64,000 nucleotides of DNA, taken from the NCBI GenBank assembly GCA_020439745.1, contig JAGQSC010000036.1, positions 1 to 64,000 of the forward strand, given 5' to 3'. Under the pieces are notes generated by a model. The model was not told where the DNA came from. It saw nothing but the letters and a program-made list of their open reading frames with translations, and did not search any database. The stretch comes from Acidobacteriota bacterium. Lineage in GTDB: Bacteria; Acidobacteriota; Holophagae; Acanthopleuribacterales; Acanthopleuribacteraceae. The position numbers and the translations under genes are program-made. This document shows, piece after piece, positions 14,532 through 53,636 of the stretch. The first letter of the stretch is position 1; each line of letters starts with the position of its first letter.

Positions 14532-15998
14532 GTGATGGTCCCCTATCAATCGAAATCTGTTGGTATTCATTGGATGCTCGCGGCCGTTTTGCCGATCCTA
14601 TCGCTGGTGACTGTGGCGCAAACGACGCATGCTGTGTTGGGCGGATGTGGTGGCACGGTACCTGAACGGGTTCTGTCTGCCACACCTTCTGATTACCTAA
14701 GTATTTTGCCTACGCTTCAGCCAGGAGATCTATTGGAATTGGGTCCCGGTACCTATCCCGATGGGCTCAATCTACAAGGCATTAACGGTGAGCCTGACCG
14801 TTGTGTGATCATCGCCGGCCCGTCTATGGGACCGCCCGCAGTGTTCACGGGCCGCAGTTGCTGCAACACGGTGAGCTTGGGCAACTCCAGCTACCTGGTC
14901 ATTCGCAACCTGACCATTGACGGAGGAGGTGAATTGGGTGATGCCGTGAAAGCCGAGAGCACGGCGGATTGGTGCCACCACATCACACTGGAAAATCTGA
15001 CCATCATCAACCAGGACGCCGATCAGCAGATCGTTGCCATTAATACCAAATGCCCGACCTGGAACTGGGTCATTCGAAAGAACCATATCAATGGCGCGGG
15101 CACGGGTCTTTACCTGGGCGATTCCAACGGTGAAGACGAATTTGCCAATGGTTTGATCGAGTTCAATGTCATCACCAACACGATCGGCTACAACATGCAA
15201 ATCAAGCATCAGAACGGACGTGCCGTTGGCAGTCCCGCTAACGGTCAGACGATCATTCGCCACAACGTCTTCAACAAGACTGACAGCAGCAGTACAGGCG
15301 GCAATGCGCGGCCCAATCTGCTGGTAGGTCATTGGCCAGATTCTGGTCCTGGCGCCAACGATATCTACCTGATTTATGGGAATCTGTTCTTTGGGAACCC
15401 CAGTGAGAACCTGTTTCAGGGCGAAGGCCACATCGCGTTCTACCAGAACCTGCTGGTCTCCAGTACGGGTGGTGCTGTGGCTATTCAACCCCACAACGGT
15501 GTGCCCAAAACCATCCATTTGTTTCAAAACACGATTGTCTCGGCGGGGACCGGTATTTTTGTGACGGGTGGTGACCCGGGCTTTAGCCAACTCATGGTGG
15601 GAAACGCCGTATTCTCAGACAATCCCTTGGTCGGTGGTACCCAGATGGACAATGTCACCGACGACTATGATCAAGCTGGGACGTACCTCAACAATCCTTT
15701 TGGCGATCCGGTTGTGGGTACGCTCGACCTCTTTCCGATGGCTGGCGTGAATAGCCTTCCGATGGATCTAAGCGCCATGGTGGGTTATGAGGATTGGGAT
15801 CTCGATTTCAATGCGTCGCCGCGACCGGGCACTTATCGCGGCGCCTATGCCGGAGATGGCGTTAATCCAGGGTGGAACCCGCAGATTGACACGAAGTGCC
15901 TCCTCGGTTCGGGCATACCGGACTGGGAGTTGTGGCCGATCCAGTCCATTTTGCAACTCCTCTTACAGATCGGCGGACAATGTCTCACACCGCCTTGA
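14532..15998 (+). CDS. Secreted right-handed beta-helix protein
   Basis: The protein has 488 residues. A signal peptide ends near TTHA, and the body consists of short repeats with the pectate-lyase-like beta-helix pattern (LVIRNLTIDGGG, HHITLENLTIINQD, NWVIRKNHINGAG, GLIEFNVITNT, IHLFQNTIVSAG). Such proteins are polysaccharide lyases, surface adhesins or binding proteins; no catalytic residues can be named. The start may be GTG 14532, ATG 14535 or ATG 14574, since none has a good ribosome site. The tail (WPIQSILQLLLQIGGQC) resembles the hydrophobic C-terminal segments of other secreted proteins in this window. It stands alone and converges on the tyrosine phenol-lyase gene. Confidence 0.7.
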   Translation: MMVPYQSKSVGIHWMLAAVLPILSLVTVAQTTHAVLGGCGGTVPERVLSATPSDYLSILPTLQPGDLLELGPGTYPDGLNLQGINGEPDRCVIIAGPSMGPPAVFTGRSCCNTVSLGNSSYLVIRNLTIDGGGELGDAVKAESTADWCHHITLENLTIINQDADQQIVAINTKCPTWNWVIRKNHINGAGTGLYLGDSNGEDEFANGLIEFNVITNTIGYNMQIKHQNGRAVGSPANGQTIIRHNVFNKTDSSSTGGNARPNLLVGHWPDSGPGANDIYLIYGNLFFGNPSENLFQGEGHIAFYQNLLVSSTGGAVAIQPHNGVPKTIHLFQNTIVSAGTGIFVTGGDPGFSQLMVGNAVFSDNPLVGGTQMDNVTDDYDQAGTYLNNPFGDPVVGTLDLFPMAGVNSLPMDLSAMVGYEDWDLDFNASPRPGTYRGAYAGDGVNPGWNPQIDTKCLLGSGIPDWELWPIQSILQLLLQIGGQCLTPP

Positions 15999-32911: not shown

Positions 32912-33589
32912 CTATTCAGATTCAAACGGCAGGCTCAGGTCGTTCGAAAGGATCGAAAAGACCTTGTGCACGCCGAGCATGGGACCCGTTCCGCTGGTGG
33001 AAACCTGTAGGTAGGCGGTAACCACGTCGTAGTTAAATGATGACGCATGATTCAGTCGACCATGAGGCACCCATACCCGCAACTGCCCTGCTTTCATGCC
33101 AACCTGGAACCCCGGGGAATCCATATACATCGGCATGCCGGGATTGGTGGGTGGCAGCACGGCATTCAGGTCTTTTGAAGCTGTGGCTTGCACTGAAAAG
33201 CCGCCCGGTACGCGGTCGTCCTTTTGCAGCACAACCCAATGCGTGTGGTATATCACACCGTCGTTTCCATGATCTCCATCTTGGTTCTCGTCCCAAAGTG
33301 GCGTGTCGTCGAAATCGGGATGCGATGTGATCGCCAAGGCAAGAAGTCCCTCGGCCTTGTCAAAACCAACCGTCATGGGCGAGAGATTGGTGATGAACAC
33401 ATAAGCAAGCACGGGGGCCTGGTCCAGAGTGCCCCTGGGTGTTGGTGTCGTGCCTCCGGCTACACCCTCGACTTCAAGTGTGAAGACCCAATGGAGCGAG
33501 TCCACTTGATTGATGACGCGTGCGGACTTTAGGGCAAAGTCTGCGTCGTTTGTGGGTATTTGTAACAAAATGATGAACCAAGCGGTCAT
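32912..33589 (-). CDS. Exported hypothetical protein
   Basis: A 225-residue protein with a short hydrophobic start (TAWFIILLQIP). The rest is beta-rich without recognisable motifs; notable parts are VFTLEVEGVAGG, DENQDGDHGNDG (an acidic, possibly calcium-binding loop), YHTHWVVLQKD and QLRVWVPHGRL. The His-containing YHTHWV stretch might bind metal, but this is a guess. It overlaps the TlpA-like gene upstream by four bases, so the two are cotranscribed. Function unknown. Confidence 0.6.
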   Translation of the reverse strand: MTAWFIILLQIPTNDADFALKSARVINQVDSLHWVFTLEVEGVAGGTTPTPRGTLDQAPVLAYVFITNLSPMTVGFDKAEGLLALAITSHPDFDDTPLWDENQDGDHGNDGVIYHTHWVVLQKDDRVPGGFSVQATASKDLNAVLPPTNPGMPMYMDSPGFQVGMKAGQLRVWVPHGRLNHASSFNYDVVTAYLQVSTSGTGPMLGVHKVFSILSNDLSLPFESE

Positions 33590-34095
33590 GACCTATCTCC
33601 CATCACTGGGCACAGCGGTCCACCGCCCATCACGGGTGCTCGGCCATTGGACCGGATGACGTCTTCATATGTACCCAGGTCAAGTCGTCCAAAATGACGC
33701 CAGACTTCCATTCCGTCAGCATCCAACAATACCGAACTCGGTGTTCCTTGAATGGACCATTGGCGCATGGTGCCAGGCACGGGATCGGAGCCGTTGTGAA
33801 CATCTATGGCAATAGGGAAGGTGTAGCGGAACTCCTGAATGAAAACGCTTAACGCGTCGGGTGCCATCTGAGCATGGTGTTCAAAAACAGAATGAATCGC
33901 GATCACTTGTAAATCCAACTTGTCCCGTTCATTCCATAGGTGCTGTAGTGTGGGAAGACTGTGCAGGACACATGAAGGGCAAAACATTTGAAAGAAATGA
34001 ACCAAGGTGGGTTTCCCTTGGAGCGAGCTTATTTCGAGCGGTTGACTGTTGATCCAGTAAGACAAATTCCACTGGGGAATGTGGTTGTGATTCAT
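33586..34095 (-). CDS. TlpA/ResA-like thioredoxin-fold protein
   Basis: A 169-residue redoxin: GKPTLVHFFQMFCPSCVLHSLP holds the CPSC redox pair (seen in HFFQMFCPSCVLHSLP), followed by LQVIAIHSVFEHH, a FPIAIDVHNGSDPVPGTMR insertion and the cis-proline strand QGTPSSVLLD. Members are thiol reductants or peroxiredoxin-like proteins. It has no signal peptide, so it is probably cytoplasmic. AAGGAG precedes the start. It is divergent from an HxlR regulator, whose family often responds to redox or reactive electrophiles, and it may be controlled by it. Confidence 0.8.
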   Translation of the reverse strand: MNHNHIPQWNLSYWINSQPLEISSLQGKPTLVHFFQMFCPSCVLHSLPTLQHLWNERDKLDLQVIAIHSVFEHHAQMAPDALSVFIQEFRYTFPIAIDVHNGSDPVPGTMRQWSIQGTPSSVLLDADGMEVWRHFGRLDLGTYEDVIRSNGRAPVMGGGPLCPVMGDRS

Positions 34096-34198
34096 GGCAA
34101 ACTCCTTTTGTGATACCCACCGCGCGGTTGGGTTCGTCTATGATGGCCATACACAGTCGCTGTGGAAACCCGGCACTTTTAGGTGTCTACCCCACAAA

Positions 34199-34537
34199 AT
34201 GGTTGGCATTGACATGAATGCAGGCGAAAAAAAAAGGGACTTGAAACACGTGGTCAGCGATATCGTCGGGTGCAAATGGAGTTTGGCGGTTTTGGCGGCT
34301 ATCCGTGATGGTGTCACCAGACCCGGCGCACTTGAAAGACATATTGACGGCATTTCAGCCAAGGTGCTCTCTCAGCGATTGAAAAAACTGACGCGTTATT
34401 CGATACTCACGCGAACTGAATACGCTGAGATACCGCCACGCGTTGAATACGAGATCACAGAGCAAGGAGCATCGTTGATAGAGATCATCGACGCCATAGA
34501 GGAACTCAACGGTCACTGGGTTTCCGAGCAGACATAG
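34199..34537 (+). CDS. HxlR-family transcriptional regulator
   Basis: A 112-residue winged-helix protein: GCKWSLAVLAAIRDGVTRPGALERH is the typical HxlR helix region, followed by GISAKVLSQRLKKLTRYSILTR (recognition helix) and YEITEQGASL. The Cys in VGCKW is at the place where redox-sensing HxlR proteins carry their reactive Cys. The start is uncertain: ATG 34199 and 34214 are both possible, and the frame opens at 34094. It is divergent from the TlpA-like gene and probably regulates it. Confidence 0.82.
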   Translation: MVGIDMNAGEKKRDLKHVVSDIVGCKWSLAVLAAIRDGVTRPGALERHIDGISAKVLSQRLKKLTRYSILTRTEYAEIPPRVEYEITEQGASLIEIIDAIEELNGHWVSEQT

Positions 34538-34567: not shown

Positions 34568-36763
34568 TCAACGCACTTGTGCAGTCACTAGGTCTCGGTA
34601 AGTCCCAGCCTTGGCCATGAGTTCTGAGTGGGTGCCTTGTTCTGTGATTTGGCCGTCTTTCAAAACAGCAATTATGTCGGCATTTTCAATGGTGCTCAAA
34701 CGTTGGGCAATGACCACCTTGGTGCATCGCAAGCTCTTCAGATTCTGTTGAATACGGCGCTCTGTGACCGTGTCCAATGCGCTGGTGGCTTCGTCTAACA
34801 GCAGGAGGAACGGGTCATGAACCAAGGCACGTGCCAAGGCCAATCTTTGTCGTTGACCGCCGGACAGGGTGGTCCCTTCATCCACCAAGATCGTGTCATA
34901 ACCCAAAGGCATGTCGAGAATCGTCGTGTGGATTTCAGCGATCTTGCAGGCCTTTACGACGCGTTCGAAGGGAGCGTCTGGCCTAGCCAGTACCAGGTTC
35001 TCGCGAATAGTGCCCGGAAATAGATATGGATGCTGCAAGACGACACCCATTTGCCTGCGTAACATGCGAAGATCCCATTCGTGAATGTTCGTGTCGTCCA
35101 GTGTGATTCTTCCATCGGTGGGTTTGAATAAGCCCGCAAGCAGGCTCCCAAGCGTGGACTTACCTGAACCAGATTGACCCACTAGAGCAAGCGTTAGGCC
35201 CGGTTCCAGTTCGAGGTTGATATGTCTCAAGACATCATTGGCTTGGGCATCGTAGCGAAATCTCAACGATTCTATCCTTAGCCTGCCCTGCAGTTGTGGT
35301 GGAGGCACCACGACATCAGCACCTTGCTCAGTAGGTGTGTGTACGACGTCGTCGATCCGGTCGAGAAGTGCCCCTAGGTCTTGAAGTCTGAGGCCCATGT
35401 CCACCAGTGAGGAAAGCGGTCCCAGGAAGCCTTCTGCAAGTGCGTTCAGGGCCAGCATCGTGCCTAAGGTCATTTGGCCACTGAGTACCAAATGTCCGCC
35501 GAAAATCAGTAAGATTAAAGGTGAACCCATCCTGGTGGCATCCATCAGGCTGTCGGTCCATGCCATCAGTCGACCCTTCCTGATATTCACATTCATCACA
35601 TTCACAAAGAGGTTGGACCATCGATCCACGGCATGGAATTCGGCACCGCAGGTTTTGAGGGTCTGCATGCCCCCTAACATCTGAACCTGATAGCTCTGTG
35701 ATTCAGCTTCTGCTTTGAGGTTCTCGGCCACAAGGTCTCGAACCCGTTTGCGAGCGAACACGAAAATCAAAAGCCGCACAGAGCCCAGCAACAACACCAA
35801 CGCACCGATTGCGGTACTGACCAAGAACAACGCGACTAAATAAAACATGACCAACACACCGTCCATCAGTGTGGACAAGGCTGATGAAGTTAAGAGATCG
35901 CGGATACTGGCATTGGAGTTGAGTCTCATCAAGAGGTCACCGGCGCCTCGCCTCTGGAAGAACGAGAAAGGCAGACGGACCATATGATCGACAAAGTCAA
36001 AGGTGAATTGCAGATCGAGTTTGCTTTGAAGGAACAACAATAGGTGGGCTCGAATAACAGAAGCCATCAGTCGGAAACCCACAATGGCGGTAAAGCCCAT
36101 TCCCATCAAGGTGAGAAGGGAGTAATCCCGATGGGGGACGACACGGTCGACCAGAGCACCTGTAAGCACTGGCAGGGCTAGAGCCAATAGCTGAATCACC
36201 AGAGCTAACGTGACGATTCGCAGGATCCACCCACGCGATGTGAGAATCTTGGCAAGATAGTGGCGAATGCGCGTGAAGGGGTTTTCTGCTTCAGACCCCT
36301 CAAACGACTCACTTTTCTCAAAGATCAGGGCCACGCCGGTAAAGCTCTTGTTCAATGCAGCCGCCGCCATTTTTCGCCGGCCAAAGGCTGGATCGATCAC
36401 CATGAATGCATCGTTGTTCACCCGTTCCAATACGACAAAGTGGTTGAACTCCCAGTGGAGGATAGCGGGTACCGACAACTGGCTGATTTGGTCGCAACTC
36501 ACTTTGACGGCGCGTCCGCGTAACCCGAAGTGCCTTGCTGTTTGCAACAGCGCGGCTGCGGATGTCCCGTCGCGTCCTAGTCCAACGGCCTCTCGTACTT
36601 CGCTCAATTTTGTGGATTTGCCGAAATAGGACAAAATCATGGCCAGACATGCTGCACCACATTCAGCGGCCTCCATTTGTTGGATGACGGGTATGCGAGG
36701 TTTTGGTTTCTTCCATTGAAGGCGCTTCAGCGCAGAGAATTGCCGCCAGGACTCAACGCTCAT
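34568..36763 (-). CDS. C39 peptidase / ABC exporter of the lanthipeptide operon (LanT)
   Basis: A 731-residue bifunctional exporter. The N-terminal C39 peptidase has MEAAECGAACLAMIL (Cys35 nucleophile), HWEFNHFVVLE (His) and VIDPAFG (Asp). Six membrane helices follow from about 170 to 440, then an ABC ATPase with GQSGSGKSTLG, LSGGQRQRLALARAL and LLLLDEATSALD. It would cut the lanthipeptide leader after the double glycine and export the core. It belongs to the NHLM/lantibiotic exporter type that works with HlyD-like adaptors. The gene is last in the operon and overlaps the GAF-adaptor gene by 11 bases. Confidence 0.93.
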   Translation of the reverse strand: MSVESWRQFSALKRLQWKKPKPRIPVIQQMEAAECGAACLAMILSYFGKSTKLSEVREAVGLGRDGTSAAALLQTARHFGLRGRAVKVSCDQISQLSVPAILHWEFNHFVVLERVNNDAFMVIDPAFGRRKMAAAALNKSFTGVALIFEKSESFEGSEAENPFTRIRHYLAKILTSRGWILRIVTLALVIQLLALALPVLTGALVDRVVPHRDYSLLTLMGMGFTAIVGFRLMASVIRAHLLLFLQSKLDLQFTFDFVDHMVRLPFSFFQRRGAGDLLMRLNSNASIRDLLTSSALSTLMDGVLVMFYLVALFLVSTAIGALVLLLGSVRLLIFVFARKRVRDLVAENLKAEAESQSYQVQMLGGMQTLKTCGAEFHAVDRWSNLFVNVMNVNIRKGRLMAWTDSLMDATRMGSPLILLIFGGHLVLSGQMTLGTMLALNALAEGFLGPLSSLVDMGLRLQDLGALLDRIDDVVHTPTEQGADVVVPPPQLQGRLRIESLRFRYDAQANDVLRHINLELEPGLTLALVGQSGSGKSTLGSLLAGLFKPTDGRITLDDTNIHEWDLRMLRRQMGVVLQHPYLFPGTIRENLVLARPDAPFERVVKACKIAEIHTTILDMPLGYDTILVDEGTTLSGGQRQRLALARALVHDPFLLLLDEATSALDTVTERRIQQNLKSLRCTKVVIAQRLSTIENADIIAVLKDGQITEQGTHSELMAKAGTYRDLVTAQVR

Positions 36764-38924
36764 GGGACCCCCCGACCACGGATTTCAGTGCTGGAATCAA
36801 GCTCATCAGGATGGATTCAGATCTCAACTTGATCTGGACCTCGCCTGTCATGCCATTGACCAGTGAGAAACTTTGGTTGTCCAGTTCAATTCTCGGGTTT
36901 TCCACTTGGGCATAGACCAGGGTAACCGGAGCGTTCATGCCCAGCATGTCCTGGGCTTGCGGACCCATGATACGGGTCGCCTCAGCCGGGCTGATGACTC
37001 CTTGACTGGTGCGATCGACCTTCAACTGGAGATCGTGCTCATAGCCATTCACGCGAAAACGGACCGTCATGCCTTCACTCAGTTGTGGTGCGAAATGGCC
37101 CGGCACACATCCAATTAAGGAAAAGGTTGGGTTTGGCTTGGTTAGGGTGAGCGCTATTTCACCAGACTGAAACCACTGGCCGTCGTGAATGCGCAGGTCA
37201 CTAGTGACGCCATCGTGGGGCGCACGAATCGCATTGCGCTCGATCGCTTGAAATAAGGCGTCGCGTTCGATGCGCAGTTGTCGAAGGGCCTGTTCAGAGG
37301 TGGGGTCGGATGGGTCCAGTAGTCGCTGAACCAAGTGGGTATTCCATCCTGCATCTAGTGCCTGCTTCCGGTCCTCTTGGTCCTGGGTCGTGATGGTGAA
37401 AAGGATTTGTCCAGCTTGAACTTCGGCGCCGGAAGGTACCTGAATCCCTTTGACGATTCCTGATCTCAATGCGGTGACCCGGGTTTCCTGGTTGGCTTGG
37501 ATCAAGGCTGGGCCCGTTGCATATTGGCTGACGCGGCCAATGGCTGCAAAGAGCAGCGCTATCGTAAAGATCACTGCCACACTTGCAAAGGCCCAACGTT
37601 CCCAAAATGGTGAAAACGGCAAAATGTCACCTTCGGAAAGTGGGTTGAGATGTCGTGTTGCCAAGGCCTCCTCATTGAACAGATGGGCGTTTTTGTTTCG
37701 CTGCTGTTGGCACATCATTTCAAATGACGTCTTGAGATTTTGAGCGATCAAGGGTGCGGCGAACAGGTCGCAAATCAGTGAACAAATCTGTTCTTCCTGA
37801 GATCCAAAGGGTGGGTCTTTGCGCGAGCGGGACACAGCAAGGATGCCGGCATTGCCTTGTATGTCCCTAAACGGTGCCAGTAGCACGCGGTCATCGGCAT
37901 CGCCCAACACATGGTCTGAAGTCGGGTCAAATGCACGGTGTGTGGCCAGCCGATCGAGATTGGTGAGTGTTCCTGTAGCGAGCACACAACCAAGGACACC
38001 TCGTCCGGTGGGAACAGTGACCCCCGATCCAACCAGCGAACCGTCGTAAGGATTGTTCATGAGACATATCGCTGCTTTTCCTTTGTTCAAATCAATCATG
38101 GATTTTGCCGCGAAATCCAAGGTGTCGCGAAATTCTCGCTGAATCGATAGTCGGCTGGCAGCTGCTTGCACTCTGGAAAGGTATTCCGATCGCAGCATCA
38201 GGCTGAGTCCACCGTCCAAACGCGCTGTCATATGACGTGCATAGTCCTGAAGAGATGCTTGAATCAATTGTTCGAGCATGTTGGGTTCGAGCCGTTGCGG
38301 ACCGATAAAATAAGCGTCGTCATCACCATTCGTTGGCGAAAAGACAATGAGATTCGTGAATCGAGCTGGATAGGTCCATTTCAAAGTACGCCACTGTGTT
38401 GCGGTCAATTGTTGATTGCCATCTGCCAACACAAGTAATGTGGCTACCTCCTCTTGCCGCAGAATCTCCATTGCTGTTTGAAAATGACTTACTTCTTTGC
38501 CTTCAAAGTTGAGTGGCTTTGCGGAACCAAGCCTGAGCGTCAACAGTTGAGCATGTGCACGTAAGTTGGCTCTGAGTCGAAATGTCATGGGATCAGAAGG
38601 CAGGAATGTCAATCCCGCTACCCCGATATCTGTTCCGTCGTCCAGACGCCGGATGGGGTCGACTAAACGGACCTGACACCAAACCTGTACCGTGGTCGAT
38701 TGAGGGGATAGCTTTGCCGCCAATAACCCATGATCGCCCGGTTTGAGATGGGCGTTCAGAGGATCATCGTAGAATACGAGTACGCCATGATCGTCCATGT
38801 ACCGCAGCTGCATCGTCTGCCATGTACCGTTCGACAAGAACTGAGCAGCTGCCGGTAGCCGGTAAACGGACGGATCGTCCTTTTCGGAGTACTTGCCTCC
38901 CCGTATTGCTTCAAAAGTGGTCAT
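36753..38924 (-). CDS. GAF-containing HlyD-type membrane fusion protein
   Basis: A 723-residue fusion. Residues 1-250 form an unrecognised region with a beta-rich, PilZ-like start (GTDIGVAGLTFLPS). Residues about 262-400 look like a GAF domain (LDFAAKSMIDLNKGKAAICLMN in part, VTVPTGRGVLGCVLATG, LLAPFRDIQGNAGILAVSR). One membrane helix lies at about 444-463, and residues 464-723 form a HlyD/lipoyl adaptor (ALRSGIVKGIQVPSGAEVQAGQ in part, IRAPHDGVTSDLRIHDGQW). The adaptor half should be periplasmic and dock the exporter, with the GAF half in the cytoplasm. Overlaps link it to both neighbours (14 and 11 bases). A ligand-gated exporter is inferred. Confidence 0.85.
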   Translation of the reverse strand: MTTFEAIRGGKYSEKDDPSVYRLPAAAQFLSNGTWQTMQLRYMDDHGVLVFYDDPLNAHLKPGDHGLLAAKLSPQSTTVQVWCQVRLVDPIRRLDDGTDIGVAGLTFLPSDPMTFRLRANLRAHAQLLTLRLGSAKPLNFEGKEVSHFQTAMEILRQEEVATLLVLADGNQQLTATQWRTLKWTYPARFTNLIVFSPTNGDDDAYFIGPQRLEPNMLEQLIQASLQDYARHMTARLDGGLSLMLRSEYLSRVQAAASRLSIQREFRDTLDFAAKSMIDLNKGKAAICLMNNPYDGSLVGSGVTVPTGRGVLGCVLATGTLTNLDRLATHRAFDPTSDHVLGDADDRVLLAPFRDIQGNAGILAVSRSRKDPPFGSQEEQICSLICDLFAAPLIAQNLKTSFEMMCQQQRNKNAHLFNEEALATRHLNPLSEGDILPFSPFWERWAFASVAVIFTIALLFAAIGRVSQYATGPALIQANQETRVTALRSGIVKGIQVPSGAEVQAGQILFTITTQDQEDRKQALDAGWNTHLVQRLLDPSDPTSEQALRQLRIERDALFQAIERNAIRAPHDGVTSDLRIHDGQWFQSGEIALTLTKPNPTFSLIGCVPGHFAPQLSEGMTVRFRVNGYEHDLQLKVDRTSQGVISPAEATRIMGPQAQDMLGMNAPVTLVYAQVENPRIELDNQSFSLVNGMTGEVQIKLRSESILMSLIPALKSVVGGSHER

Positions 38925-39798
38925 GGTCTTTCGGTTCCAGGAATACTTGGCAACTTGCGCCGGCGGGGGGATAAGAGTCGGCTTGAATCTGGCCCAGACA
39001 AAAGACTAATTGTGTGGGCTCATCGCGCTCAGGAGCTATGGACGTGACAACCCCTTGGTAGCGCATTTCAAATCCCATGAGTTTGAACGAGTCACCGGTA
39101 CGAATTTGACGGGTCAGATCGGGAGGGACCGCGAATCGAACGACGCCACGTGAAGGCGCTGTGACACTTAACATGGTTTGGCCTTGGCTGATGGTTTGGC
39201 CTAGTTTCAGTTGGATATGTTGAACCGTGCCTGAGATGGGTGAAACGATGTCAGTTTGGCTAGATTGTCGTATCAAAGCGTCCAGACGAATCTGTGCTTG
39301 CTGCTGCTCGGATTTGGCGGCGGATACGCGATGATCAGTACGCGCCAACTGCAACTCGGCTTCGCGTATCTCCGCGGCTGGATAGATAGACTGCGAAGCC
39401 CTCATCCGTTCAAGGTTCTCTTGCGCCTGGATTTGGTTGAGTTTGGCTTCTTCCAGAGCCGTGCGCGAGGCACGGAGGCTTGCTTCTGCGAGTTTCATGT
39501 CATCTGCCAGGTGATGGGCTTCCAACTGGACCAAGACTTCTCCTGCATCCACATTCGCGCCCTCGCGAACCTGCATCTGTTTGACAAACGCGTCCATGGG
39601 GCACGACAAACGAACCACTTCGTCCGACAACACCACACCCAAGAATGAAGGACTTTCAAGATGGTGTGTTTGACTTCGTCTTTGATCAGGTTCATCAACT
39701 TTGGATGCTTCAAGATCGACGCGAGGCGGATGGCGAAAGGCTAGCCATAATGCCGATGCACCCATCAGTCCTGCAAAAACGAGCAACGTCTTCAACAT
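38911..39798 (-). CDS. HlyD-family membrane fusion protein
   Basis: A 295-residue adaptor: one N-terminal membrane helix (LKTLLVFAGLMGASALWLAF), a lipoyl half (VKQMQVREGANVDAGEVLVQLEAHH in parts), a coiled-coil hairpin of about 75 residues rich in Ala, Glu and Arg, the second lipoyl half (ISGTVQHIQLKLGQTISQGQTM in parts) and a beta-barrel end. It would bridge the inner-membrane exporter and an outer-membrane channel. No outer-membrane channel gene lies nearby. The start is set at ATG 39798, overlapping the LanM stop by seven bases; the frame extends 11 codons further. Confidence 0.87.
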   Translation of the reverse strand: MLKTLLVFAGLMGASALWLAFRHPPRVDLEASKVDEPDQRRSQTHHLESPSFLGVVLSDEVVRLSCPMDAFVKQMQVREGANVDAGEVLVQLEAHHLADDMKLAEASLRASRTALEEAKLNQIQAQENLERMRASQSIYPAAEIREAELQLARTDHRVSAAKSEQQQAQIRLDALIRQSSQTDIVSPISGTVQHIQLKLGQTISQGQTMLSVTAPSRGVVRFAVPPDLTRQIRTGDSFKLMGFEMRYQGVVTSIAPERDEPTQLVFCLGQIQADSYPPAGASCQVFLEPKDHDHF

Positions 39799-42700
39799 GA
39801 TTCTGGGTAAGCCAATGCCAATGGATTGCAAATGGGTTGGCTGTAGCTAAGGTGTTCGAGCGCTAAACCAATCCCTGCCAGGCCACACATGAGACCGGGT
39901 ATCATGATCGGCACATCGATACCACAACGTGGACCGGATTGCTCAATCTGTTGACGTGCCATGAGTTCCCATCGGTACAAAGTGTCTTGAACGCCTTGAT
40001 TGACCAAATCAGAGGGATCCAAACTCTTCATGAGCAGTTCGGCCACCCACAGATTGCCGAGAATGCCGTGGCACAGACTGTGGTTGCCAATTGCGCCCCG
40101 GGCAAGGGTATTGTTCAGAGCCACGCGTATCTCTTGCCGCGTTGGATCGTCTCGGTAGCGATTGGGCATTAACGCGCGGCCTAATCCCACGCCCGGTGCG
40201 CCATGGCACCATTGACTCTCGTAATGTGGACCGGAACCCAACTCTCGCAGATCGGGCCAGTTCCCCAGTTTGGCATTGAAATGAGATCGCTCGTAGGTCA
40301 ATGCCCGAACCACGGTTTCCTCAATAAGGCCCACCAAGTATGAATGTCCGCCAATACGGTCCAAGGTGTCCGCTGCGCGGGCAAGAGCGCAGGCTATGCC
40401 TGCATTTCCGTGAGAGAACCCCAAAAGACCGGCGGGACTCTTTGAAAAGGGCCAAAAGCAGCCATCGTCATGCTTCACGGCCGAGCTGACCAGATGTCGA
40501 CTGCAGGCAATAATCAAGTGGACAGCACTGTCCGAGGGACACCGCGCGTGGATGGCACAAGCGTGCATCAGGGTGCCTGCTGCGCCTGCAATGATGTCGA
40601 AGAATCCGTCTTCTGAAACATTGTCGGCAAGGTATTTCATGTTTTCAGTGAAAGCGGGTAGGTCACCGAGACTGGGATCATGAGCGGCCATCTGGACCAT
40701 GGCGTAATACATGGAGCAAGTTCCGCTATAGCCGCCGTGCACCGCAAATTCATGGACGTCGATGTTCTGTCTCAATTCACGGAATATGCGATGAGTTACG
40801 TCCCGTATCTTTGGGTCATTGTTTTTGTGTTGAATCACGCTGAGAAACCAACCAATGCCACCATTGCCCCCATACAAATCGCTGCCGGTGGGATTAAACG
40901 TCCATGCACCGTCAGGTAGGATATCCATGCTTAACCAGGCTGCATCTTCTTGTCCCAAAAAGACTGAACGCATGAGTTGTTGGGTGATGTCGTCTCTTTG
41001 CTTGTTGGTATTCGAGACATTCCCAGATTGGTGTTGGGTCATGATGGAACCCACGGTCCCTTGAATGACAAAACACTGGTCCTGCATGTCCGAATCGCTC
41101 ATGGCGTTCAATCGGTGCATCATGTGATCAAAAGCCGAGATATGATCCAAGTCGCAGACATGGTTACCGCGACTGTCGCGTAATGAAATTTCGTCGGTCC
41201 TGGTCCAAAAGAAGGGAACATCTCCCGATCGCAGGTCTGACTTCTCATGGGGGACAATGCTTTGGTGAATTAATGAGGGTCCGTTTGATTTCCAAAGGTG
41301 ATCAAAAAGGTTGTCGCGGTCAAATCCGTGACGCATGTGGTCGGGATGGAGACCATCGTACAGAAGGTTTGAGTAGATCTTGGTGCCGCGCAATACAACA
41401 CGCGTCTTGACCCCTTTGAAACCCCGTAGGAGTTGTCCTAATTCGTTCTTTTGGGTTGAGATGAATCGGTACATCCATGTGAAACCTTGAATCAAGTCGC
41501 CAACGTGGTCGGTTACGGAAATGGCTTCACCGTCTTTGCTGGGTAGGTTGTCCGAGCGTTGGAGTTCCTTTTCGACGCGAATCTGGCGCATCTCGTCTGT
41601 ACCTGAACCTGCCCAATCGGGTACGGCACTTGGTAGGGTTTGCGCTTCTGCAGAGCCGAGTCCTCCCAAGTGGACGCCAGCTTGTTTGGCGCCACCCCAA
41701 ACCCGCCTAGGCAACATGCCCGTCTGCAGCACCGACTGCGACAGCCAGGAATAGGCATGGTCCCTTGCTGTCTTGCTGGGCGCGTATTCAGGGGATGGAT
41801 GTAGCAGTGTCTCCAAATCCACAAGTACGGGGTAAGACCCATGAGCAATGAGGTTCTCATGATGGAAATCAGTCGCACCTAACAGGTATAGGAGTGCCAA
41901 ATACGCGCCCTGGCGCCAGTAGAATTGGGTGATGCCACGGTTTGTGGTTTCTTGGCGAGACACGAAACTGCACCAGCCGTACTCGCCCCGATCAATGACG
42001 TCCGGGTAAACAAAAAGCGGACGATCCACGTCTTTGGATGTGGCGCTGTCGTTTATCCATTGCAGCAGCTTGTGAAACTGATGGTCTATGGCAAGCGACT
42101 TTGGTTTGTATACCAGTTGTGTTCGTGCGCCTTGGGCATTCTCAAAACCCAACATCCACACTGACTGGCCGCCACAGTGAAGATCAGATGCTCCACCCCG
42201 TGCATGAGTCCATTGTGCACCGGGGCATTCGGCCAACAGGCCGGCATCCAGTTGGTGCAAATCTGTCTTGACTCGATCGATCAGTAGTTGTGCGTTTGTG
42301 ACCCATCGGATGAGCGTCTCGGACACCAGTCGTGCAAGCACTTGGTACTCAGAAAATAGTCGCTGCCAGCCCTCGATGGTGCCAAGGATGCGGTTGCGGA
42401 AGTCGAGGAATCTCTGGTGCGGGGTGTCGCCCTTTAGTTTCTCTTCGAGTCTCGCTACGTTCAATTCCAAAACCAGCACACGGTGGCAGAGTCTGGTGAG
42501 TTGCTGGCAGAGGTCGTCCAATAGCTGAGGTTTCAGACGAATAAGATCCACGCGTTTGCAATCGTCGCTCGTGTTCAACTGCCGCCAGGCATAGTTGAGG
42601 AACGGGATCAGCGCGGGCGCGAAACTAGCGTCCTTATCAAATGAAGGGTGATGGGGTGCGGCTTCCCAACAATCGAAAACATCACACAGTTGACGGAGCC

Positions 42701-42968
42701 ACAGCTCCTTGTGATTTCCCATGCACCAATCGATGGTTGCCTGTGGTGCATCGTAGTGCCACTGTGTGTGCTGCCAGTGGGCAGCAAGAACACCCTGGTG
42801 CAGACCCTCCTGGATGACCTTGTTTCGATAATGAGATTCATCCAAACGAGCTCGTTTTGAGTAGTGGGCCTTGAATTGGTCGATCAGGTCCGGTTTGGGG
42901 TCGCAGCTTTCCCCGCTCAGTTCGTTGGGATAAGTAGCTCGCAAAAGGGTGTCAATTTGCGTAGACAT
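39792..42968 (-). CDS. lanM: Type 2 lanthipeptide synthetase LanM
   Basis: A 1058-residue bifunctional enzyme. The N-terminal DUF4135 dehydratase uses ATP to phosphorylate and eliminate Ser/Thr; its kinase-like motif TDFHHENLIAHGSYPVLVDLE (in parts FHHENLIAHG and VLVDLETLLHP) lies near residues 366-390. The C-terminal LanC-like cyclase carries the zinc ligands Cys921 (QWCHGAPG), Cys966 and His967 (SLCHGILGN). All key residues are present, so the enzyme should install (methyl)lanthionine rings in the product of the gene just upstream. Length is typical. It follows the precursor by about 120 bases, across a strong hairpin, and begins with ATG preceded by AAGGAGC-like spacing. Confidence 0.95.
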   Translation of the reverse strand: MSTQIDTLLRATYPNELSGESCDPKPDLIDQFKAHYSKRARLDESHYRNKVIQEGLHQGVLAAHWQHTQWHYDAPQATIDWCMGNHKELWLRQLCDVFDCWEAAPHHPSFDKDASFAPALIPFLNYAWRQLNTSDDCKRVDLIRLKPQLLDDLCQQLTRLCHRVLVLELNVARLEEKLKGDTPHQRFLDFRNRILGTIEGWQRLFSEYQVLARLVSETLIRWVTNAQLLIDRVKTDLHQLDAGLLAECPGAQWTHARGGASDLHCGGQSVWMLGFENAQGARTQLVYKPKSLAIDHQFHKLLQWINDSATSKDVDRPLFVYPDVIDRGEYGWCSFVSRQETTNRGITQFYWRQGAYLALLYLLGATDFHHENLIAHGSYPVLVDLETLLHPSPEYAPSKTARDHAYSWLSQSVLQTGMLPRRVWGGAKQAGVHLGGLGSAEAQTLPSAVPDWAGSGTDEMRQIRVEKELQRSDNLPSKDGEAISVTDHVGDLIQGFTWMYRFISTQKNELGQLLRGFKGVKTRVVLRGTKIYSNLLYDGLHPDHMRHGFDRDNLFDHLWKSNGPSLIHQSIVPHEKSDLRSGDVPFFWTRTDEISLRDSRGNHVCDLDHISAFDHMMHRLNAMSDSDMQDQCFVIQGTVGSIMTQHQSGNVSNTNKQRDDITQQLMRSVFLGQEDAAWLSMDILPDGAWTFNPTGSDLYGGNGGIGWFLSVIQHKNNDPKIRDVTHRIFRELRQNIDVHEFAVHGGYSGTCSMYYAMVQMAAHDPSLGDLPAFTENMKYLADNVSEDGFFDIIAGAAGTLMHACAIHARCPSDSAVHLIIACSRHLVSSAVKHDDGCFWPFSKSPAGLLGFSHGNAGIACALARAADTLDRIGGHSYLVGLIEETVVRALTYERSHFNAKLGNWPDLRELGSGPHYESQWCHGAPGVGLGRALMPNRYRDDPTRQEIRVALNNTLARGAIGNHSLCHGILGNLWVAELLMKSLDPSDLVNQGVQDTLYRWELMARQQIEQSGPRCGIDVPIMIPGLMCGLAGIGLALEHLSYSQPICNPLALAYPESC

Positions 42969-43653: not shown

Positions 43654-43665
43654 ATGGGACCCGTT

Positions 43666-44175
43666 ATGAGTGCGATCCAATCTGCACCAGGTCCGGTTTC
43701 TGACCTGACCTGGGACGAGATCTACCAGGAGTTGAAACGCTTGGCACATAGAAATCTCTACGCTTCCAGGCCGGGCCACACGTTGTCCACCACTGCCTTG
43801 GTGAACGAGGTGTACATCAAGCTCGTCAAGAGCCAGGAACTCAACCTCGCTGACCGCCAGCACCTGATGGCGCTATCGTGTAAAGCGATGCGCCAAGTGT
43901 TGGTTGACTACGCGCGGCGGAAAGCAGCGCAGAAGCGGCAGACGGATATTGTGGTTGATGCGCCACCACGATTAGCTCAATCCGATTTGTTGGCAGTTGA
44001 AGAGGCCCTCAACGCCCTGGCCAAGGTGGATCCGAGACTGGTTCAGTTGGTGGAATGCCGTTTCTATGGGGGACTGTCCAATGCAGAGACGGCGGAGCTC
44101 ATGGGCATGTCGCAACGAACCGTGGAACGCGACTGGTCTCGAGCCAGATCCTACCTACACGCTCTCTTAACCTGA
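43666..44175 (+). CDS. ECF sigma factor (TIGR02999-like, short N-terminus)
   Basis: A 169-residue sigma factor of the ECF group found beside serine/threonine kinases in Planctomycetes and Acidobacteria. Region 2 is visible as YQELKRLAHRNLYASRPGHTLSTTALVNEVYIKL in parts, with the HxLMALSCKAMRQVLVDYARR pattern. Region 4 has LAKVDPRLVQLVECRFYGGLSNAETAELMGMSQRTVERDW in parts. About 25 residues that normally precede region 2 in this group are missing. No anti-sigma gene is present; the kinase gene 23 bases downstream is the likely partner. An ATG at 43654 is an alternative start. Confidence 0.85.
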   Translation: MSAIQSAPGPVSDLTWDEIYQELKRLAHRNLYASRPGHTLSTTALVNEVYIKLVKSQELNLADRQHLMALSCKAMRQVLVDYARRKAAQKRQTDIVVDAPPRLAQSDLLAVEEALNALAKVDPRLVQLVECRFYGGLSNAETAELMGMSQRTVERDWSRARSYLHALLT

Positions 44176-44198
44176 TTTCAGTTTTTCGAGGAACTGTG

Positions 44199-47144
44199 AT
44201 GGACATCGATCAACTCAGGTCAATTGACCAAGCCTTTCAAGATGTGCTGGGTGAGGACGAGCCGCACCGTTCACACCTTCTACGGCGGTTGCGCCGGAAT
44301 TCTCCTGCCATCGCCGACGCTGTATTGGAACTTCTGAAAAACATGGATGCAGCGAACGAATACTTGGACCAAGTCCATCGCAAAGCGATTGACGAATGGA
44401 CGGGTGGCTGTCCGCAACCCGCTTCTCCGGTGGGGGAAGGGTGTCAGTTAGGTGCCTACAAGTTGCTTGCCCCTTTAGGACAGGGTGGCATGGGTAGTGT
44501 CTTTCTTGCCGAACGGTCCGATGGTGCCTTTGAGAAACAGGTGGCTATTAAGGTGATGCGTTATGCGCTGCCTCGGCCTACCGATCTGGATCGATTCCGT
44601 AAGGAGTGTCAACTGCAAGCGCAATTGGAGCATCCCAATATTGCACGCGTCCTTGATTCCGGAATCGAAGGCAGTACGTCATTCTTGGTGATGGAGTATG
44701 TTCAAGGCGAACCCATTGACCAGTACTGCTCGGCGCGATCGCTATCTGTCCGTGAACGTTTGCAACTGTTCGTGCAAGTATCGGACGCCGTACAGTACGC
44801 TCACCGCAAGCTGATCCTGCACCGAGACATCAAGCCATCCAATGTACTTGTTGACGAAGAGGGCCGTGTCAAATTGCTGGACTTTGGAATCGCGAAGATA
44901 CTCAGCGACCAAGATGATACGACGGCAACAGGTTTGCGGATGTTCTCGCCCGGTTACGCCAGTCCAGAGCAGTTGCTAGGTCTGGAGTTGACGACGGCCT
45001 CAGATGTTTATAGCCTTGGCGTTCTTTTGTTCGAGCTCTTAACGGGGGAAAAACCATTTTCGGAATCGCCCGTTGGACGCGTGTTCAGCGATTGGAAACA
45101 GTTGCCGCAGCTTCCCAGCAGTTGCCTGAGTGATGCCGAGTCCGGACCGGGTTCGAAGCATTTTTGCGCCCAATTAAAAGGCGATTTGGATAGCTTGATT
45201 TGCAAGGCACTTGAACCTGAAGATAGTCGGCGATACCACACCGTTGATGCCTTACGTCATGAAGTTGTTCGTTATCTGAACGGATTGCCCATTGAAGCTC
45301 GAGGCGACGCCTGGTCGTATCGAATTAGGAAGTTCGTGGGCCGTCACCGAACGGCCGTTGGTGTTGGTTTTCTTTTTGTCAGTGTGCTTATGGGTTTCTC
45401 CGTGGTGACCGCTATCCAGTCACGACAAATAAGCGCCGAACGTGACAAATACCAGCAAATGACGGATCACCTGACCGAACTGATCCACTCCTCCGATCCC
45501 GATCAATTTGGTGGTGAAGTTCTTTTTGCCGATGTGTTGAAGTCGTTTTCTGAAAAGCTGGAGAACTCGAAAGACTCAGCCAATAAGGCAAAAGTGCTTT
45601 CGATTATGGGCGAGGCCTATGAGAACCTGGGTCATTATCAAGAGTCAGAAGCATTGTTACGTCGGGCGCTGGCTATTCAATCCAGCGAACTGGGCGATCT
45701 TCATACAGATACCCTGTTTTCCCAACAGGTATTGGGGATCGTGCTTTTGCATTTGGGTATGCGCAGCGAGGCCGAAACGCTTGTTCGTGACCTGATCGAA
45801 AAACGCGTACAGAAGGACGGCGCTTTGCATCACGAAACCTTGATGGCCCGTCAATTGTTGGCCGTCGTGATTGGCGAACAGGGTCGTTATGAAGAGGCTA
45901 GGGAGGCCTTGCTTCAGGTGGTCGCACATCTCGAATCTTTTGGAGAGGGCGATGAAGGCTATTTGGGTGCCTTGGAGAATTTGGCGCGTTATGAATGCAA
46001 ATCCGGCCACCAGGACGAGGGTCTTGCTCGAATGCGCAGCACACTGGCTTTGAAGCAAAGAGTTTTTGGTCGTAATCACCCGAATACTTTGTCTGCTTGG
46101 GTCAACTTGGGTGCCGAGTTGGTGAACCGAAATGACAAACAGGAGGCGACTCGTGTGTTGGAGGAGTCTCTGGCCGCGCATCGAGAGGTGTATGGCCCGA
46201 ACCATCCGAAGACGTTTGCTGCCGAGCAAAATGTGGCCCGTCTGTTCAACCTCATCGATCGCAGCGAGGAAGCACTTGTGTTGGCAGAGTCCTGTCTCAA
46301 TGGGAAACGGGAAGTATTGGGCGAGATGCATCCATCCACGTTGGCTTGCCAGAGCGTACGCATCAGCATCTTACGGCAATTGGGCAGGCATGAAGAAGCA
46401 CTCACGGCAGCGTGGGAAAACGAACGTGCGCAAATCCAGGTGACTGGAGCAGAACATCCACATACTATTTTTGCGATGGACATGGTGACCACATTACTTT
46501 TGGATCTCCACAGATTTGATGAGGCCAGGACCCAAATTGAGAAAACCCTGATCGTCAAGACTCAGACTTTCGGCCCCAACAGTCAACAAGTCATTGCCTC
46601 TATGGCCAACTTAGCAACTGTGCTGCAAAGTGATGGACGCCTCCGTGAGGCAGTGGCCTTGAAGGAGGATGTGCTCGATCGCCTAACCTGTGACGTCGAT
46701 GCAGTGTCCTCTTCGCAACTGGTCTATATGAACAATCTAGCCATGGGCTACAAGGCCAATGGCCAATTCGATCGATCCGAGGAAGTATTTCTCGAGTGTC
46801 TTCGTCAGTATCAAACCATTGAGGGTCCGACCCATTTCTATACGGTATGTACTGAAATCAATGTGACCGATGTATTGCGACTTGGCGGGAAGTTGAATGA
46901 AGCTCACACCATGGCTGAGTTAGCTATGAACCATGCGGATCTCTACCTTCCGTCGGGACACCCTCGGGTGGCATTGGCGTTGAACAACTTGGCAATGGTC
47001 TGGTTTGAATTGGGTCATCAGGCCGATGCCCATGAAGCTTTGATGATGGCTTTGGCCATGGTTCCACCTGAGCATCCCTTCGCAACACGGTTCGAAGAGA
47101 ATCTCCGTTTGTTAGAGCCCGACCTGAAGTTGGCACTCCATTGA
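44199..47144 (+). CDS. Serine/threonine protein kinase with transmembrane helix and TPR array
   Basis: A 981-residue receptor-like kinase. The kinase domain (about 85-355) has LGQGGMGSVFLA, AIKVM, LHRDIKPSNVLV (208-210 HRD) and LLDFGIAK (228-230 DFG), so it should be active. A membrane helix lies at about 386-406. Residues about 430-975 hold roughly twelve TPR units with the kinesin-light-chain-like phrase HPNTLSAW / HPKTFAAE / HPSTLACQ every 42 residues. The TPR part would be periplasmic and may bind a partner. ATG 44199 with GAGGAAC upstream is the start; the frame runs back into the sigma gene in another frame. Likely cotranscribed with it. Confidence 0.9.
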   Translation: MDIDQLRSIDQAFQDVLGEDEPHRSHLLRRLRRNSPAIADAVLELLKNMDAANEYLDQVHRKAIDEWTGGCPQPASPVGEGCQLGAYKLLAPLGQGGMGSVFLAERSDGAFEKQVAIKVMRYALPRPTDLDRFRKECQLQAQLEHPNIARVLDSGIEGSTSFLVMEYVQGEPIDQYCSARSLSVRERLQLFVQVSDAVQYAHRKLILHRDIKPSNVLVDEEGRVKLLDFGIAKILSDQDDTTATGLRMFSPGYASPEQLLGLELTTASDVYSLGVLLFELLTGEKPFSESPVGRVFSDWKQLPQLPSSCLSDAESGPGSKHFCAQLKGDLDSLICKALEPEDSRRYHTVDALRHEVVRYLNGLPIEARGDAWSYRIRKFVGRHRTAVGVGFLFVSVLMGFSVVTAIQSRQISAERDKYQQMTDHLTELIHSSDPDQFGGEVLFADVLKSFSEKLENSKDSANKAKVLSIMGEAYENLGHYQESEALLRRALAIQSSELGDLHTDTLFSQQVLGIVLLHLGMRSEAETLVRDLIEKRVQKDGALHHETLMARQLLAVVIGEQGRYEEAREALLQVVAHLESFGEGDEGYLGALENLARYECKSGHQDEGLARMRSTLALKQRVFGRNHPNTLSAWVNLGAELVNRNDKQEATRVLEESLAAHREVYGPNHPKTFAAEQNVARLFNLIDRSEEALVLAESCLNGKREVLGEMHPSTLACQSVRISILRQLGRHEEALTAAWENERAQIQVTGAEHPHTIFAMDMVTTLLLDLHRFDEARTQIEKTLIVKTQTFGPNSQQVIASMANLATVLQSDGRLREAVALKEDVLDRLTCDVDAVSSSQLVYMNNLAMGYKANGQFDRSEEVFLECLRQYQTIEGPTHFYTVCTEINVTDVLRLGGKLNEAHTMAELAMNHADLYLPSGHPRVALALNNLAMVWFELGHQADAHEALMMALAMVPPEHPFATRFEENLRLLEPDLKLALH

Positions 47145-51837: not shown

Positions 51838-52323
51838 ATGCATTCGGTCCTCAGTCGTCTTGAATCAAAGTGGTTAACCCTACTAACCGAACGGGTATCG
51901 ATCCATGCTGCCACCCGCGACGATACCCATCAACCCCTGTTGACACGAGTCCTTGGATGTCGTGTGGATGACCAGGGGTTGAAGATCTTTTTGCAGCCGG
52001 ATCAGTGTCCCGGATTCCTGGAAGCGTTAACGAGTTGTAGCCGCCTGGCGGTCGCATTTTGCCGACCCAGTACCTGTGAAACCATCCAACTAAAAGCAGA
52101 CGACGCGCGGATCGTGCCCCTGGTCGAGGGTGACTGGTCCCCCATACGTAACTACATCCATTCATTTGTTCAAGAGCTTGGTGAAATGGGATACAGCGAC
52201 GAATTTGCGCACGCCATTCTCGGTGAAGCGGGAGAAGATTTGGTGGCAGTCTGTTTCACACCTATCAGCGCATTTGACCAAACGCCCGGTCCCAAAGCGG
52301 GTACATCGGTCTTTCGCTCATGA
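51838..52323 (+). CDS. PPOX-like flavin-binding protein
   Basis: A 161-residue protein with a split-barrel pattern like pyridoxamine-phosphate-oxidase-type flavin proteins: LTERVSIHAATRDDTHQPLLTRVLGCRVDD in parts, LKIFLQPDQCPGFLEAL, SRLAVAFCRPSTCETIQLKADD. The C-terminal GEDLVAVCFTPISAFDQTPGPKAG is a typical closing strand. It lacks clear FMN-phosphate ligands, so cofactor binding is uncertain. It overlaps the next gene (also PPOX-containing) by four bases, so the two are coupled and may form a mixed complex. Confidence 0.65.
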   Translation: MHSVLSRLESKWLTLLTERVSIHAATRDDTHQPLLTRVLGCRVDDQGLKIFLQPDQCPGFLEALTSCSRLAVAFCRPSTCETIQLKADDARIVPLVEGDWSPIRNYIHSFVQELGEMGYSDEFAHAILGEAGEDLVAVCFTPISAFDQTPGPKAGTSVFRS

Positions 52324-53636
52324 ATACGGTCAGTCTGTTGGAGATTCGAGACTGCCTTGATGGCTCGGTTCCTGCCACAATCGCTACCTGCTCCGAAGAT
52401 GGGACGCCCAATGTGGCTCAGCTTTCCCAGGGCTTTTATGTCGATGCCAAACATGTAGCGCTCTCGTTTCAATTCTTCAACCGAACGCGGAAGAACATTC
52501 TCGAAAATCCACGGGCAGTCATCAAAGTCAGCCACCCTTCAACGGGCGCCCATTTCGTGTTGACCCTGCTTTTTGTGCGAACCGAATCAGAAGGACCACT
52601 TTTTGAAGCCATGCGCGCACAGTTGGCTGGCATTGCGGCTCATTCTGGTATGGCGGGTGTTTTTGAATTGAAGGGGTCTGACATCTATCGAGTTCTGCAC
52701 GTGCGCAAGCTTCCGGGTCGCACCATGCAGGTGCCTGTATTACAACGCCTTAGCTCGCTTCGCGAGTTATTGGCGCACGTTTGTCAGGTCACTGATTTGG
52801 CATCAGTCGTCGATCGAACAGTGGAGGGACTTGCCGCGTACTTGGGTTTCAAGCATGTGGCCTTTTTTCTCAGGGACACCTCTGGTGACATATTGACGCT
52901 CCTGGCCAGCCACGGTTATGAGGCATCAGGCATTGGTGCAGAGATACGCTTTGGTCAGGGTGTCATCGGCTGTGCGGCAAAACATGGTGTGCCCATTCGC
53001 ATAAACCATGTGACTCGTGAACAAGCTTATGTCCATGCCGTGAAAGCCTCGCTAAGCCAACAAGCAGAACCGACCCTAATTCCCTTTCCGGGATTAGAAC
53101 AGCCGGGAAGTCAGATGGCGGTTCCGGTGATGGCTGACGACGGCTGCACAGGTGTTCTGTTTGTGGAAGATCAGGCCGCGGAATCATTTGACTACCAACA
53201 CGAAGAAGCGCTTAGGTCCCTTGCAGAGGCGTTGGTTTGGGGTCTGAAAGCGGGCATGGCCATCACGCCCACAGGTCCGAAGCGGGCGATTGATCCACCT
53301 GCCGTCACATGTGCCGCGATTCGAATTTACCTGAGTGATCACAGTGTATTCATAGACGATGAGTATCTGATCAAAGGTGTTGCCGGTGCCATTTTTTTGA
53401 AGCTCGTCCGCTCTTATTTGGAATCGGGTCGCTGCCAAACGACCAATCGCGCGCTGCGTTTAGATCCCGCCATCGGGTTGCCCGATTGGAGCGCCAACCT
53501 AGAAACACGGTTGTTGTTGTTGCAGCGTCGGCTACAGGAAAAATGTGGGTTTATTCGCTTGGGCCGCCCCGCAAGGGGGCGGATCCAATTGTTGGTCGAA
53601 CGCCAGATCACCTTGACCTGTGTAGCGGAAACCTAA
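52320..53636 (+). CDS. PPOX - GAF - winged-helix fusion protein
   Basis: The protein has 438 residues in three parts. Residues 1-150 form a PPOX split barrel (VPATIATCSEDGTPNVAQLSQGFYV in parts, LSFQFFNRTRKNILENPRAV in parts). Residues about 155-325 form a GAF domain (LASVVDRTVEGLAAYLGFKHVAFFL in parts, RFGQGVIGCAAKHG, QMAVPVMADDGCTGVLFVED). Residues about 335-438 look like a winged helix (FIDDEYLIKGVAGAIFLKLV, NLETRLLLLQRRLQEK). The layout suggests a flavin- or ligand-sensing regulator. Its start overlaps the previous gene by four bases. Confidence 0.78.
   Translation: MNTVSLLEIRDCLDGSVPATIATCSEDGTPNVAQLSQGFYVDAKHVALSFQFFNRTRKNILENPRAVIKVSHPSTGAHFVLTLLFVRTESEGPLFEAMRAQLAGIAAHSGMAGVFELKGSDIYRVLHVRKLPGRTMQVPVLQRLSSLRELLAHVCQVTDLASVVDRTVEGLAAYLGFKHVAFFLRDTSGDILTLLASHGYEASGIGAEIRFGQGVIGCAAKHGVPIRINHVTREQAYVHAVKASLSQQAEPTLIPFPGLEQPGSQMAVPVMADDGCTGVLFVEDQAAESFDYQHEEALRSLAEALVWGLKAGMAITPTGPKRAIDPPAVTCAAIRIYLSDHSVFIDDEYLIKGVAGAIFLKLVRSYLESGRCQTTNRALRLDPAIGLPDWSANLETRLLLLQRRLQEKCGFIRLGRPARGRIQLLVERQITLTCVAET

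Follow-up and report, generated by a model that had tools for sequence, protein, structure and literature searches.

An HlyD-type adaptor with a GAF-containing cytoplasmic part, encoded beside a C39-peptidase exporter in a lanthipeptide locus of an Acidobacteriota bacterium

Adaptors of the CvaA/HlyD type have a short cytoplasmic tail. The 64,000-nucleotide stretch of Acidobacteriota DNA that we analyzed (the window; positions 1 to 64,000 of contig JAGQSC010000036.1) encodes an adaptor whose HlyD-type half is preceded by several hundred cytoplasmic residues. What is this cytoplasmic part, and what might it do in peptide export? A first-pass annotation of the DNA had described it as a GAF module joined to an HlyD-type adaptor within a lanthipeptide operon, and had suggested that a small molecule, perhaps a cyclic nucleotide, gates export through it. 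The fused gene belongs to a minus-strand series consisting of a precursor gene, LanM, a second adaptor, the fused gene and an exporter. The genes of the locus are:

34568..36763, minus strand: C39-peptidase ABC exporter, 731 aa, 11-base overlap with the fused gene
36753..38924, minus strand: fused adaptor, 723 aa (PilZ-like barrel, middle region, GAF, membrane helix, HlyD half)
38911..39831, minus strand: second HlyD-type adaptor, up to 306 aa, with an ordinary short cytoplasmic tail and a longer hairpin
39792..42968, minus strand: LanM lanthipeptide synthetase, 1058 aa
43091..43363, minus strand: precursor peptide, 90 aa, mersacidin/lichenicidin type, GG leader
43654..44175, plus strand: divergent ECF sigma factor
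44055..47144, plus strand: Ser/Thr protein kinase with TPR repeats, adjoining the sigma factor

Both LanM and the precursor exceed their NCBIfam cut-offs (TIGR03897, 756.7 bits versus 304; TIGR03898, 38.8 bits versus 23.5), and with a LanM and a matching precursor the locus is a class II lanthipeptide cluster. From LanM onward, neighboring frames share 11 to 40 bases, and this gene order suggests that the series from LanM to the exporter forms one operon. The placement of the fusion among lanthipeptide genes was therefore correct. The true start of the second adaptor may lie near the ATG at 39798. Apart from that of the exporter, whose sequence keeps the catalytic Cys-His-Asp pattern of the family, no C39 domain was found in the genome. 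We found no gene for an outer-membrane channel in the operon, and several are present elsewhere in the genome; given the second adaptor as well, this suggests a two-adaptor export path.

The ECF sigma factor and the Ser/Thr kinase are possibly regulators of the cluster. The ECF and kinase-TPR pair also flanks the fusion in the same-genus genome G001 (L032:2617-6184), and an ECF factor together with a kinase lacking TPR repeats lies near the fusion in G615 (L061:6158-7911). The core of the same-genus precursor (L032:6538-6804) is closely similar to that of the window precursor, suggesting a conserved product in the two genomes. Directly after the exporter, at 33586-34537, are a redoxin/TlpA-like gene (minus strand) and an HxlR regulator gene (plus strand), both of which fall outside the overlapping series.

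The fused frame opens with an ATG at 38924 on the minus strand, and its stop codon ends at 36753. Its 723-residue product has the following parts, all on the minus strand:

38595..38855: PilZ-like beta barrel, residues 24-110, six strands, pLDDT about 64-77
38235..38594: middle region, residues 111-230, pLDDT below 50, no Pfam hit
37740..38132: predicted GAF domain, residues about 265-395, from homologues, AlphaFold, Foldseek and VIA
37593..37691: juxtamembrane motif, residues 412-444, consensus LFREEAL...EG..L..SP.W
37536..37592: membrane helix, residues 445-463, from hydropathy
36780..37526: HlyD-type periplasmic half, residues 467-715, including a short helical hairpin at 514-563

Hydropathy places the sole transmembrane helix at residues 445-463, with about 444 residues on the cytoplasmic side, and the unusual length reported for this part was thus upheld. 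A signal peptide or a periplasmic GAF domain was rejected on account of this single span. C-terminal to the helix, HlyD_3 and Biotin_lipoyl both score over their Pfam cut-offs, and the HlyD/lipoyl matches cover residues 481-645. The protein is a member of the HlyD/membrane fusion protein family, with a membrane helix and, after it, lipoyl halves, a hairpin and a barrel. The HlyD half of the full-length model resembles the solved adaptors MacA, ZneB and MexA, in a model whose overall confidence is low (pLDDT 61, pTM 0.32).

The GAF assignment depends on how many sequences are considered. PF01590 matches the window protein with E=0.14 and 13.1 bits, below the cut-off of 22.4. A scan of ten other fusions (G618 was left out) gave eight that pass a GAF cut-off, for example at 7e-14 in G140 and 6e-16 in G616, whereas the G615 match fell under it (1e-4) and G418 yielded no GAF hit. 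This confirmed that the GAF identity, weak from the window sequence alone, is solid once homologues are added. We also modeled the cytoplasmic part (residues 1-432) by AlphaFold with ten relatives, and obtained a pLDDT of about 80-95 across most of residues 250-400. The predicted GAF region matched solved GAF domains in Foldseek, with E down to 4e-8, and in VIA, with Z about 16 over 125-158 residues; both match lists for this model are taken up by GAF domains and do not bear on the N-terminal 230 residues. Thus, the model predicts a GAF fold in the fused protein, as the first-pass annotation had proposed, and together with the homologues and the HlyD families it bears out the fusion itself. 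Long helices at 214-260 and 375-426 flank the predicted domain, the last of which runs towards the membrane. Outside the genus the GAF part shows 18-23% identity, compared with 29-35% for the HlyD half. This faster divergence fits a fast-changing sensor, but it fits relaxed constraint as well.

GAF is, however, only one portion of the cytoplasmic part, residues 24-110 being a PilZ-like barrel and residues 111-230 a third region; in this respect the earlier description was incomplete. The window segment 24-110 gave no Pfam hit, and the PilZ-like region matched no PDB sequence. In G140 the corresponding region scores 28.3 bits with PF07238, over the cut-off of 22.5. Direct comparison by hhalign of a small profile of residues 24-110 with PilZ domains of the same genome, which has 14 PilZ matches, was weak (probability 44%), and for this reason we name the region only "PilZ-like". 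Neither half of the c-di-GMP pattern, RxxxR or (D/N)xSxxG, is present in the window protein, and the joint pattern occurs in none of the fusions, G140 having only NxSxxG. For the middle region, homologues gave an hhalign probability of 34% against receivers of the same genome and 0.1% against the PilZ control, and the canonical phosphoacceptor Asp of receivers is not evident in most aligned rows. Residues 111-230 are possibly a degenerate receiver-like domain. The domains N-terminal to GAF vary among homologues, and PilZ is seen or inferred in only 3 of the 12 fusions.

The juxtamembrane motif recurs, with variations, in all 12 fusions and in the adaptor of G369, which has no GAF domain. Because it persists in that GAF-less protein, the motif would serve the adaptor core, perhaps in docking to the exporter.

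How widely does this architecture occur, and what accompanies it? We searched 150 relatives, a sample of 396 genomes from across the phylum, and two classes. The search returned twelve GAF-bearing fusions, the window included, from five families of the phylum (f1, f32, f73, f90 and f91): besides the window, these are the same-genus G001, at 46-47% identity, and ten further genomes. A chance joining of two genes is excluded by this recurrence. The adaptor is nonetheless rare, being present in 6 of the 396 phylum genomes, one of them with a short form without GAF, and a search of plasmids found no fusion.

In all 12 cases the gene after the fusion encodes a C39-ABC exporter. Among the nine fusions with enough flanking sequence, seven have class I or II lanthipeptide genes no more than about 10 kb away; G312, G616 and G618, on contigs of 3.4 to 7.6 kb, were left out of this count. 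Near the fusion we found LanM in G000 and G001, LanB with LanC in G140 and G615, split LanB with LanC in G574, split LanB in G617, and LanM with a mersacidin-type peptide on the other strand in G418. No lanthipeptide genes were found around the G619 and G571 fusions. The constant partner of the fusions is thus the exporter rather than any one modification enzyme, and the question whether the architecture always sits with LanM and C39 genes is answered, for these twelve, yes for C39 and no for LanM. At L060:8693-15960 we observed a class I-like cluster in which separate genes for the N- and C-terminal parts of LanB stand on either side of LanC, with a candidate precursor at 14637-14858 (minus strand).

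In the class of G418, LANC-type genes are found in 10/10 genomes with the adaptor compared to 41/138 others (Fisher P about 1e-5, with genome size and kinship not controlled, and with G613 among the ten having the short adaptor). In G613 and G369 the HlyD half adjoins a C39 exporter without GAF, so the GAF module is dispensable for linkage to the exporter. A second adaptor also lies near the fusion in G001, G418, G574, G571, G617 and G615, directly adjacent to it in G418, G574 and G571.

Fusion of GAF to HlyD is itself already known. GAF-HlyD proteins such as MexAM1_META1p2402 were reported in 2015 in SecA_DEAD / Peptidase_M50 / HlyD loci, where the authors found no ABC transporter and proposed a regulatory and sensory role (PMC4452313). 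Those proteins share with ours a GAF domain joined to an HlyD/biotinyl-lipoyl half. Their neighbors are a SecA-like ATPase and M50-HlyD proteins, whereas the window type is accompanied by the C39-ABC exporter, an adaptor and Lan genes, has one GAF domain with a PilZ-like or other N-terminal part, carries a distinct juxtamembrane motif and always adjoins a C39 exporter. The earlier type is present in this phylum as well: in G143 (L035:458-5070) a protein with at least two GAF domains and HlyD adjoins an M50-HlyD protein, and its similarity to the window protein is weak (29%, in the HlyD part). The expected tie between the fusion and RiPP loci therefore holds largely for the present subfamily but not for GAF-HlyD proteins at large. 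Simple transfer from the M50 type was rejected, given the weak similarity, the different GAF count and the lack of a common juxtamembrane motif.

Three other systems are comparable. Like the NHLP/NHLM system (PMC2887384), the locus pairs a C39-ABC protein with an HlyD adaptor for export of a modified RiPP; unlike it, the locus has a mersacidin-type precursor, no second ABC subunit and a sensor-type cytoplasmic part in the adaptor. The best NCBIfam match of the exporter is TIGR03796, at 613.9 bits under a cut-off of 853.3, and the NHLP/NHLM adaptor family TIGR03794 matches at 17.2 bits under a cut-off of 156.2. Judged by these scores, the export system would not be assigned to NHLP/NHLM. Similar to colicin V and haemolysin type I systems (CvaA, HlyD), there is a C39-type ABC protein, a single-span adaptor and an outer-membrane channel encoded elsewhere, while the GAF-containing cytoplasmic part and the two different adaptors in one operon set the window apart. 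The LanM, GG-leader precursor and C39 exporter are those of mersacidin/lichenicidin class II clusters. Here they are combined with a Gram-negative export layout, with two HlyD-type adaptors of which one is sensor-fused, and with the divergent ECF sigma factor and Ser/Thr kinase, in which the locus differs from those clusters.

From this evidence we consider it very probable that the fused protein serves the adjacent C39-peptidase ABC exporter as its inner-membrane adaptor. The exporter would cut the leader off the LanM-modified peptide and pump the peptide out, with the juxtamembrane motif docking the adaptor to it. GAF and the preceding domains would constitute a cytoplasmic module, probably dimeric, that is joined by the long helices to the membrane helix. 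Upon binding a small molecule or a partner protein this module would change state, and the change would tune how the export complex assembles or how active it is. Contact with an outer-membrane channel encoded elsewhere in the genome is probably made by the second adaptor, whose hairpin is longer. The best explanation as a whole, to which we assign a probability of roughly 50%, is a C39-exporter adaptor whose cytoplasmic module tunes export or assembly on a signal. Regulation of export by the fused adaptor is plausible, although for the specific step, that the module tunes export in response to a signal, we would put the odds slightly below even.

GAF domains often act as dimerization modules. 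The main rival to a signal-tuned adaptor, and one almost as likely, is accordingly a constitutive scaffold: the module would dimerize the adaptor and hold the exporter, or LanM and the modified peptide, at the membrane without sensing anything, and would thereby couple modification to export. This would suit a module encoded in an overlapping gene series with LanM and lacking the known nucleotide-ligand motifs. Cytoplasmic parts of ABC-linked adaptors are, moreover, essential for substrate recognition and complex assembly (review, PMC8277102). On the other hand, GAF would be an unusual choice for pure docking, and the module occurs with LanM, with LanB/LanC and without any nearby lanthipeptide enzyme. 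Since it also occurs with LanB/LanC or with neither, a specific contact with LanM cannot be general, while a contact with the C39 exporter could be. The scaffold is a tentative reading, close behind the signal-tuned adaptor in likelihood.

If a signal is indeed sensed, a conserved cysteine offers one candidate. C287, in a beta strand of the GAF domain, is kept in 11 of the 12 otherwise divergent GAF domains, and the redoxin and HxlR genes adjoin the exporter in the window genome; redox sensing through C287 could adjust export of a thiol-rich peptide. We regard this as unlikely: a lone cysteine conserved within a strand could have a structural role, and the redoxin and HxlR genes lie outside the overlapping series, their place beside the exporter being an observation on the window genome.

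Least likely is gating of export by a cyclic nucleotide or c-di-GMP bound to the GAF or PilZ-like domain, for although the top GAF fold matches include the cyclic-nucleotide-binding GAFs of phosphodiesterases and Lcd1, and although G140 has a Pfam-significant PilZ and the genome many PilZ matches, GAF domains with heme or without nucleotide match equally well, none of the 12 GAF domains has the N-K pair of NKFDE (F is kept and the acidic positions are variable), and PilZ with its ligand motifs is as sparse as described above. The cyclic-nucleotide part of the original suggestion is therefore unsupported; gating by some other signal is possible.

The signal-tuned adaptor, if correct, would have consequences for how these peptides are controlled. 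The usual view is that lanthipeptide production is controlled at transcription. With a sensor in the export adaptor, control would lie at leader removal and secretion, post-translationally, and there would be a handle for switching type I peptide export. A bolder and more tentative version is that this is a distinct subfamily of C39-exporter adaptors in which a sensory module, responding to a metabolite or redox cue, switches lanthipeptide maturation and export on or off. A module that does no more than scaffold would still inform on the cytoplasmic parts of ABC-linked adaptors, about which little is known. Additionally, the pairing of this adaptor subfamily with a C39 exporter across class I and II clusters is a genome-mining marker for RiPP export loci in this phylum. 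We found no paper on GAF with HlyD plus lanthipeptide or C39 in a search of a literature with few subscription papers. As far as this literature shows, what is new is the subfamily itself, with PilZ-like or other N-terminal parts, invariably next to a C39 exporter and frequently near lanthipeptide genes. Lastly, the window encodes a protein with PNPOx-like and GAF domains at 52320-53636, which is unlinked to the operon.
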